Shown piece by piece: positions 57,204-59,327 of a stretch of DNA of 64,000 nucleotides. The notes beneath the pieces are model-generated. The model saw only the letters and a list, made by a program, of their open reading frames with translations, searched no databases and had not been told where the DNA came from. The first letter of the stretch is position 1. Each line of letters opens with the position of its first letter. Made by a program: the position numbers and the translations under genes. This DNA is from Reyranella sp. (GTDB lineage Bacteria; Pseudomonadota; Alphaproteobacteria; Reyranellales; Reyranellaceae): the NCBI GenBank assembly GCA_021732285.1, contig JAKFVH010000149.1, positions 1-64,000 of the forward strand, written 5' to 3'.

Positions 57204-57345
57204 TCTGGTTCGATCCTTGCTGGGCAGGCGGGGTGGCCGCGGACTGTAGGAAACGGGGGATATAAAGGCAAACGTGCGGCCCAACGGCTGGTTTTACACA
57301 GGCGTATGCCCGCACACTTCACGCGACAACCGGGGGAGAACAACA

Positions 57346-58638
57346 ATGCTCGAGCAGGTCTTCAAGCTCAGCGAGAACAAGACCAACGTCCGGACCGAGA
57401 TCGTGGCCGGGATCACGACCTTCCTGACCATGGCCTACATCATCTTCGTCAACCCGGCGATCCTGGCCGAGGCCAAGATGCCGTTCGGCGCGGTGTTCGC
57501 GGCGACCTGCGTGGCCGCCGCCATCGGCTGCTTCCTGATGGCCTTCCTGGCCAACTACCCGATCGCGCTCGCGCCCGGCATGGGGCTCAACGCCTACTTC
57601 GCCTTCGGCGTGGTCGGCGGCATGGGCCATAGCTGGCAGGTGGCGCTGGGCTGCGTCTTCATCTCGGGCGTCATCTTCTTCATCATCAGCGTGCTGCCGC
57701 TGCGCGAATGGATCGTCAACGCCATCCCGATGTCGCTCAAGATGGCGATCGCCGCCGGCATCGGCCTGTTCCTGGCCCTGATCGCGCTCAAGAACTCCGG
57801 CATCGTCGTCGCCCATCCGGCGACCCTGGTGACGCACGGCAACCTCACCAGCTTCCCGGTCGTCATGGCGACCCTGGGCTTCTTCCTGATCGTCGCCCTC
57901 GAACGCTTCCGCGTCATGGGCGGCGTGATCATCGGCATCCTGGTCGTGACCATCATCGCCATCGCCGCCGGCCAGCAGAAGTTCGGCGGAATCTTCGACA
58001 CGCCACCCTCGCTCGCGCCGGTGTTCCTGCAGATGGATCTCGCCGGCGCGATGAAGGTCGGGCTGGTGACCGTGGTCTTCGCCTTCCTGTTCGTCGACCT
58101 GTTCGACAACACCGGAACGCTGATCGCGCTCGCCCATCGCGGCGGCTTCATGCGGCCGGACGGCACGGTGCCGCGCCTGCGCGGCGCCCTGGTCGCCGAC
58201 AGCGGGGCGGCGATGATCGGCGCCGCCGTCGGCACCTCGACGACGACGAGCTACATCGAGAGCGCCTCGGGCATCAACTCGGGCGGCCGGACCGGCCTCA
58301 CCGCGGCGACCGTCGCCATCCTCTTCCTGCTGGCGCTGTTCGTGGCGCCGCTCGCCGGCTCGATCCCCGCCTACGCCACGGCGCCGGCGCTGTTCTACGT
58401 CGCCTGCCTGATGGTGCGCAGTCTCACCGAGGTGGACTGGGACGACATCACCGAGGCAGCACCCGCCGTCGTCACGGCGATCACGATGCCCTTCACCTTC
58501 TCGATCGCCGAAGGCATCGCGTTTGGATTCATTTCGTACGGCGCGATCAAGGTCGCGACCGGACGCTATCGCGACGTTCATCCGGCAGTCGGAATTCTCG
58601 CTGTGTTGTTCGTGATCAAGTACGTGGTCATCGGATGA
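57346..58638 (+). CDS. NCS2-family permease (AzgA-like purine transporter)
   Basis: 430 residues, about 13 membrane segments. The AzgA subgroup is shown by TEIVAGITTFLTMAYIIFVN, APGMGLNAYFAFGVV, LFDNTGTLIALAHRGGFM and SGAAMIGAAVGTSTTTSYIE. Such proteins import adenine, guanine or hypoxanthine by proton symport. GGGGGAG lies ahead of the ATG. It is the only plus-strand gene in the last 27 kb and is divergent from proS, so it may be a later arrival in the conserved block. Confidence 0.92.
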   Translation: MLEQVFKLSENKTNVRTEIVAGITTFLTMAYIIFVNPAILAEAKMPFGAVFAATCVAAAIGCFLMAFLANYPIALAPGMGLNAYFAFGVVGGMGHSWQVALGCVFISGVIFFIISVLPLREWIVNAIPMSLKMAIAAGIGLFLALIALKNSGIVVAHPATLVTHGNLTSFPVVMATLGFFLIVALERFRVMGGVIIGILVVTIIAIAAGQQKFGGIFDTPPSLAPVFLQMDLAGAMKVGLVTVVFAFLFVDLFDNTGTLIALAHRGGFMRPDGTVPRLRGALVADSGAAMIGAAVGTSTTTSYIESASGINSGGRTGLTAATVAILFLLALFVAPLAGSIPAYATAPALFYVACLMVRSLTEVDWDDITEAAPAVVTAITMPFTFSIAEGIAFGFISYGAIKVATGRYRDVHPAVGILAVLFVIKYVVIG

Positions 58639-58663
58639 TCACATCGCGAGCGCGGACATTTGT

Positions 58664-58693
58664 TTGTTGTCGAACGATCTCCGCGCTTACAAT
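58664..58693 (+). promoter_or_regulatory. Promoter of the candidate ncRNA
   Basis: TTGTTG (58664-58669), 18-base spacer, TACAAT (58688-58693), a good -10. Transcription would start near 58700, 62 bases past the end of the permease gene. Confidence 0.55.
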
Positions 58694-58699
58694 TGTTCT

Positions 58700-58868
58700 A
58701 ATTGAAAGCGGGCGATCGAAAGAAAAGGTCTTGGCAAGACGCTGGCTTCCGGCTAAGTAGCCTGGGTCTTGGGCACAGCCCGAGTTTAGGGAGGAGAGCA
58801 GCGCAAGCTGCCTGTGACGAGTTTCGGGGGTAGAGGGACGGCGGGCCAAGAGCCCGCTGTTTCTTTTT
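58700..58868 (+). ncRNA. Candidate structured small RNA, about 165 nt, class unassigned
   Basis: No open frame, but dense hairpins in order: GTCTT-GGC-AAGAC (58728-58740), GGCT-AAGT-AGCC (58751-58762), CTTGGGC-ACA-GCCCGAG (58768-58784), GCAGC-GCAA-GCTGC with a GNRA loop (58798-58811), and a terminator stem (58841-58857) followed by TGTTTCTTTTT. The 5' end AGCGGGC (58707-58713) can pair with GCCCGCT (58852-58858), which would close the whole molecule and compete with the terminator hairpin. Length and end-closing stem recall 6S RNA, but I do not recognise conserved 6S sequence, and it is not next to the usual 6S neighbours. SRP RNA, tmRNA and RNase P RNA motifs are absent. Confidence 0.6.
58841..58868 (+). 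terminator. Intrinsic terminator of the candidate ncRNA
   Basis: GCGGGC-CAAGA-GCCCGC followed by TGTTTCTTTTT, a textbook GC stem and U-run. The clearest rho-independent terminator in the window. Confidence 0.85.
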
Positions 58869-58887
58869 GCGCAATGGCTTAGGGATT

Positions 58888-58912
58888 GATCTTAAGAGAT
58901 TGGATTAAGATC
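58888..58912. other. AT-rich inverted repeat at the end of the DUF1467 gene
   Basis: GATCTTAA-GAGATTGGA-TTAAGATC, perfect 8-bp arms, overlapping the stop codon of the DUF1467 gene. It may help stabilise or end that transcript; no U-run follows. Confidence 0.4.
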
Positions 58913-59153
58913 ACTCGACCATCCGGCGGAAGCTGAAAACGTCCGCCTGATGGAGAAAATAGAACCCGATCCACAGCACGGCGGCGACGATCGAGGTGAT
59001 GATGGCCTTGCGCAGCAGCTGCGGCCGCTCGGGAGCGCCCCGCTCCTCGCCTTTGCCCGGATTTTCCACGCGACGCACGCCCAATGGCAGGACGGCAAAG
59101 AGGATGGTCCACCAGATCACCAGGTAGACCATGACGCCGGTGGCCCAGTTCAT
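58911..59153 (-). CDS. DUF1467 family membrane protein
   Basis: 80 residues, two membrane segments (MNWATGVMVYLVIWWTILFA and IITSIVAAVLWIGFYFL) separated by a charged loop (RRVENPGKGEERGAPERP). The conserved small alphaproteobacterial DUF1467 protein, found next to mce and proS in many genomes. Function unknown. Palindromic repeat family B separates it from mce. Confidence 0.9.
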   Translation of the reverse strand: MNWATGVMVYLVIWWTILFAVLPLGVRRVENPGKGEERGAPERPQLLRKAIITSIVAAVLWIGFYFLHQADVFSFRRMVE

Positions 59154-59164
59154 GGCCCCTCATT

Positions 59165-59311
59165 CTCCTCCCCCGTCATACGGGGGAGGATACAGGAGGG
59201 GGAAAGCCGCAAAGGCGATCTCTCGACAGATGAGATCATGATCTGAAACTTGCCTACGCCCGGTCTGTGGCTCGCCCCCTCCTGTATCCTCCCCCGCAAG
59301 CGGGGGAGGAA
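59165..59311. repeat. Palindromic repeat, family B (CTCCCCC type)
   Basis: TCCTCCCCC at the left pairs with GGGGGAGGA at the right; inner arms GGAGGATACAGGAGGGGG and CCCCCTCCTGTATCCTCC are perfectly complementary over 18 bases, with about 70 bases between. Small hairpins (CCCCCGTCATACGGGGG, CCCCCGCAAGCGGGGG) lie in each arm. Architecture parallels family A with different sequence. Confidence 0.88.
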
Positions 59312-59327
59312 AAGAAGGATGACGTGA

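Follow-up and report, generated by a model that had tools for sequence, protein, structure and literature searches.

Introduction

The MmgR/alpha-r8 RNAs are among the most widespread small RNAs (sRNAs) of the Alphaproteobacteria and have been associated with carbon storage and the uptake of nutrients. A proven sponge of alpha-r8 has so far been found for one species, Caulobacter. There, a G/A-rich stem-loop of the RNA CrfA pairs with the UUUCCUCCCU seed of the alpha-r8 sRNAs SisA-D and, with the help of Hfq, CrfA lowers the levels of SisA-D and relieves their targets (PMC12559287); alpha-r8 genes usually adjoin an FGase gene (PMC12559287), and crfA starts at position 3,781,500 of Caulobacter crescentus NA1000 (PMC5988900). 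A second described RNA is SmelC289/ar9, which the available part of PMC3927594 describes from Rhizobiales as adjoining prolyl-tRNA synthetase and to which that part of the source gives no function; elsewhere SmelC289 is catalogued as an sRNA in its own right, transcribed from a sigma-70 (RpoD) promoter (PMC7143759). The equation of ar9 with S. meliloti SmelC289/sra32/smrC9 rests on number, length and locus rather than on sequence comparison.

Here we describe a small RNA encoded beside the prolyl-tRNA synthetase locus of Reyranella sp., in a stretch of 64,000 nucleotides referred to as the window (contig JAKFVH010000149.1, positions 1 to 64,000). Judging from its sequence and by analogy with CrfA, we propose, at a probability of about 0.7, that this RNA is a trans-acting base-pairing antagonist (sponge) of MmgR/alpha-r8.

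Results

The RNA gene, of 168 nt, is contained in the intergenic stretch 58639-58910, within the gene order proS - permease - RNA - DUF1467 - mce [Table 1]. The preliminary description had named proS and mce as its flanks; both are there, one gene further out, but the immediate neighbours are the permease and DUF1467 genes. Between DUF1467 and mce, at 59167-59315, two copies of GC-rich inverted repeats (CCTCCCCCG...CGGGGGAGG, with CTCCTGTATCCTCCCCC common to both) stand face-to-face and resemble a REP or small repeat element.

Table 1 Features of the RNA gene and its immediate neighbours in the window.
Feature	Positions	Strand	Remarks	Basis
Xanthine/uracil permease family gene (PF00860)	57343..58638	+	upstream neighbour; at this locus in some lineages only	
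Possible -35 element TTGTTG	58664..58669	+	18-nt spacer	sequence and inference
-10 element TACAAT	58688..58693	+	conserved there in most genus sequences aligned; relatives have TAACAAT or similar	
Small RNA	58701..58868	+	~168 nt; predicted +1 ~7 nt after the -10, 3' end at the end of the U-run	sequence, alignment, 61/65 genus genomes
Conserved 5' segment GATCGAAAGAAAAGGTCTTGGCAAG	58714..58738	+	nearly invariant in 30 genus sequences	
Closing stem, 5' side, UCGAAA	58716..58721	+	nearly invariant	
Hairpin CUUGGGC-ACA-GCCCGAG	58768..58784	+	one G-C pair covaries to A-U; G-U at other pairs	
Anti-alpha-r8 site GCCCGAGUUUAGGGAGGA	58778..58795	+	18 nt; perfect complement of this genome's MmgR UCCUCCCUAAACUCGGGC	
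Hairpin GCAGC-GCAA-GCUGC	58798..58811	+	compensatory changes at two pairs	
Closing stem, 3' side, UUUCGG	58822..58827	+	nearly invariant	
Terminator hairpin and U-run	58836..58868	+	three pairs changed on both sides	sequence
DUF1467 gene	58911..59153	-	downstream neighbour, convergent with the RNA; linkage conserved	

A DNA search of 61 genomes recovered the RNA in 34, all of the host genus, and the sequences of 30 of these served to build a genus covariance model (R1). At E<=1e-18, the model located the RNA in 61 of the 65 genus genomes and, beyond the genus, in one other genus of the same family. As to the four genomes left over, the RNA of one is truncated at the end of a contig, and two of the other three assemblies are at most 84% complete. 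A plasmid collection searched for the RNA gave no match. Outside the order, the matches that the genus model gave at 25-37 bits fell mostly on look-alike terminators (L079, L080, L040, L041).

The RNA folds slightly better than its shuffled counterparts (z -2.1; 5 of 200 shuffles as good). The consensus helices of the genus alignment are a UCGAAA/UUUCGG closing stem, CCUA/UUAGG, CUUGGGC/GCCCGAG, GCAGC/GCUGC and the terminator. Pairing is kept in 98.8% of cells, both-sided changes occur in 6 of the 33 consensus pairs, and none of 500 shuffles and no slid control reaches the observed covariation score. The closing stem is the conserved long-range pairing and, being nearly invariant, is neither supported nor refuted by covariation. 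The hairpins on which the preliminary description had based a structured intergenic RNA are confirmed, and the covariance analysis on relatives that it had suggested brought out compensatory changes in these stems. The TACAAT -10 and the terminator stem with its U-run, both singled out in the same description, are also present, the former conserved and the latter with covarying pairs. The reported GNRA loop exists as a GCAA tetraloop (58803-58806) but lacks conservation in relatives, and the proposed mutually exclusive fold, in which AGCGGGC would capture the 3' arm of the terminator, did not hold up: AGCGGGC falls in the variable 5' part of the RNA, and across 30 relatives 54% of the cells of the competing helix AGCGGGC/GCCCGCU are paired, no more than in shuffles.

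The sequence TTTGTTTGT..CGAACGA around the possible -35 element is conserved in the genus alignment. A simple consensus scan found neither a sigma-70 promoter nor a terminator above its thresholds, with the -10 element also below threshold; the promoter call therefore rests on conservation, and the RNA is presumably transcribed from its own promoter in this organism.

No Rfam family reached threshold in a scan of the window, and no meaningful score was obtained near the locus. The 6S RNA family (RF00013; threshold 46.4 bits), which the preliminary description had put first among those to be checked, had no match in the window, and the genome's own 6S was found on contig C120 (51.1 bits), upstream of a ygfA-like ORF whose sequence seems to read like a 5-formyl-THF cyclo-ligase. 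On these two grounds the window RNA is not 6S; together with its conservation, they uphold the earlier view of a structured small RNA, distinct from 6S, with its own promoter and terminator. The epithet "novel" is only partly justified, as the catalogued ar9/SmelC289 occupies the same locus in rhizobia. The conserved closing stem and conserved 5' segment, like the five hairpins ascribed to the rhizobial counterpart (PMC3927594), would suit a structured RNA that binds a protein or acts as an effector itself (6S-like or similar) and whose match to MmgR is secondary. With a true 6S elsewhere in the genome, and with mainly the anti-alpha-r8 core and the terminator kept in the wider family (see below), we hold this to be highly improbable.

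The most constrained segment of the RNA in the genus alignment is (G)CCCGAGUUUAGGGAGGA, the core of which is invariant while the flanks vary. The pattern RRGTTTAGGGAGGA was found in 94 of 385 alphaproteobacterial genomes, where it is commoner than the same pattern reversed, and many of its sites are the opposite strand of suhB/MmgR (alpha-r8, RF00519); the window RNA is therefore exactly complementary to the seed of MmgR. The MmgR of this genome, encoded on contig C239 beside the FGase gene, matches the window RNA perfectly over 18 nt, the main feature of the RNA and one that the preliminary description had overlooked. Alpha-r8 is present in 71 of the 76 genomes of the order, and the window RNA is complementary to the alpha-r8 10-mer, as expected of a sponge of the CrfA kind. 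Membership of the window RNA in alpha-r8 itself was rejected, RF00519 having no match on the transcribed strand and the sense being opposite. The predicted duplex with the 20-nt MmgR core amounts to -38.9 kcal/mol, compared to a mean of -15.9 (sd 2.9) for segments of the window, the next best of which reaches -26.9; the full-length duplex energy (-101.2) is not exceptional, being equalled by several random window segments, and the seed alone stands out. In the predicted fold the site is partly self-paired (mean unpaired probability 0.11 for GAGUUU and 0.48 for AGGGAGGAGAG), with GGGAGGAG its most exposed part; half of the site is masked by the 5' arm of the hairpin at its upstream edge, an arm that resembles CUCGGGC of MmgR.

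Other resemblances to MmgR were noted in the same RNA. Segment GATCGAAAGAAAAGGTCTTGGCAAG (58714-58738) includes GUCUUGG, as does MmgR's own GUCUUGGGC, and GAGUUUCGGGG at 58819-58830 resembles an imperfect second copy of the anti-MmgR core. One genome of the genus harbors a divergent second suhB copy (L148; G030:C3:52254-52332) with the same seed and a different terminator.

Covariation between the two RNAs was scored in 36 genomes over stretches of 21 nt, one from the RNA and one from an alpha-r8 of the same genome, mostly the best-scoring copy. Cognate partners paired at 19.4 of the 21 positions versus 18.3 (sd 0.13) for shuffled partners, none of 20,000 shuffles being as high, in a test that shared ancestry inflates; upon removal of the Rhizobiales the values were 19.4 and 18.6, again with none of 20,000 as high and with kinship not removed by the shuffling. 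At one position of the seed the pair reads U-A in 27 genomes, C-G in seven (six Rhizobiales and Ferrovibrio) and U-G in two, and four lineages show matched changes outside the seed (Terasakiella, a Rhodospirillaceae MAG, Telmatospirillum and Nitratireductor). These repeated changes in separate lineages are a stronger part of the between-gene evidence than the shuffled-partner test. In the Rhizobiales, a U.U or C.U mismatch interrupts the seed at one position. A different reading of the site is that GGGAGGA, which resembles a consensus Shine-Dalgarno sequence, mimics one and binds several sRNAs bearing an anti-Shine-Dalgarno stretch, or 16S rRNA, the fit to MmgR being the commonest case; CCUCCUCCC-type loops are found in some rhizobial sRNAs (PMC3927594). 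Conservation and between-gene covariation, however, reach into GCCCGAGUUU, which is not Shine-Dalgarno-like and fits alpha-r8, and no start codon lies at Shine-Dalgarno distance downstream in the genus. Such a mimic is in our opinion unlikely. A small ORF following the Shine-Dalgarno-like stretch was set aside as well, given the missing start codon at that distance in the genus and indels across relatives.

On loci of other orders, the genus model R1 yielded weak matches only (E 0.05 or worse), and the delineation of a wider family is thus based on locus, strand, core and covariation instead of a full-length model. One of the 25-37-bit matches outside the order, in a distant AT-rich alphaproteobacterium (L048), is real by synteny: it falls exactly between DUF1467 and proS and has the same core. 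Named genomes were scanned by way of mce, giving 80 loci, of which 21 carry the relaxed core on the RNA strand downstream of mce; two further matches, one per strand, look accidental. Core-bearing loci include those of Azospirillum, Oceanibaculum, Thalassobaculum, Marivibrio, Tistlia, Telmatospirillum, Terasakiella, Ferrovibrio, Ancylobacter, Nitratireductor, Mesorhizobium and Rhizobium; among these 80 named loci, no such RNA was seen at those labelled Rhodobacteraceae. Locus and core thus recur in many alphaproteobacterial families. The core is there oriented convergently to DUF1467 and is mostly accompanied by a -10-like box and a terminator, and it is chiefly the core and the terminator that the wider family has retained.

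The same comparison speaks to the origin of the transcript. As the permease gene, which has the same orientation, stops 62 nt before the RNA, and the next terminator is that of the RNA, the RNA might be a 3' UTR, or a fragment derived from the 3' UTR, of the permease mRNA, with no promoter of its own. Yet in lineages devoid of the permease at this locus, where proS is divergent, the RNA persists with its own terminator; the -10 element is conserved; and the rhizobial counterpart is listed as a separate sRNA that has a sigma-70 (RpoD) promoter (PMC7143759). A 3'-UTR origin is accordingly improbable, and we retain an independent sRNA.

The ar9 model (RF02343; threshold 45 bits) scored 132 bits in Rhizobium and 120 bits in Mesorhizobium at this locus. 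It gave no match at E<=10 in window positions 58500-59000 or in the whole genome, for which reason we do not assign the window RNA to ar9. Based on locus, strand, core and covariation, the window RNA is a highly diverged, uncatalogued syntenic counterpart of ar9. In families that have AUCGCCACCAGGCG after the core, the opposite strand resembles a suhB paralogue with its own T-run and scores weakly as suhB (at most 44 bits; L106, L110, L188, L189, L192, L201, L204). Either this strand is an antisense look-alike or both strands are transcribed; it could confuse the annotation of alpha-r8.

Discussion

In the proposed mechanism, the RNA would be made from its own promoter between permease/proS and DUF1467, and its exposed GGGAGGAG would start pairing with the unpaired UUUCCUCCCU of MmgR. 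Strand exchange would next extend the duplex into the hairpin CUUGGGC/GCCCGAG, to a total of 18-20 base pairs, whereupon the paired MmgR would be kept off its Shine-Dalgarno-like target sites on mRNAs; one or both RNAs may be degraded after pairing. That Hfq assists, and that control runs from the RNA to MmgR, we likewise infer, and by analogy the physiological signal may be carbon status. A sponge role for the RNA of the proS locus appears to be a new, testable prediction. Should it prove general, ar9 would gain a role, and an sRNA-sponge pair would be co-evolving across much of a class.

Set beside known RNAs, that of the window is similar to 6S in its length and in having a closing stem, but differs in that the 6S model does not match it. 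With ar9 it shares its place beside prolyl-tRNA synthetase, an orientation convergent with DUF1467 on the same strand (L268, L239), a terminator, the core AGUYUNGGGAGGA and, at the matching place, AGUCUUGGGAGGA; the two probably work the same way. Like CrfA, it has a G/A-rich segment complementary to the alpha-r8 seed, the sequestration of alpha-r8 being for the window RNA a prediction only. It seems to differ from CrfA in its locus, since proS in NA1000 probably lies far from the start of crfA. Altogether, and with somewhat less assurance than for the sponge role itself, we favor the view that MmgR/alpha-r8 and a dedicated sponge at the proS-DUF1467 locus form an ancient, mostly uncatalogued, co-evolving pair, of which ar9 would be the rhizobial form, and to which CrfA would be a second, possibly independent, Caulobacter solution.
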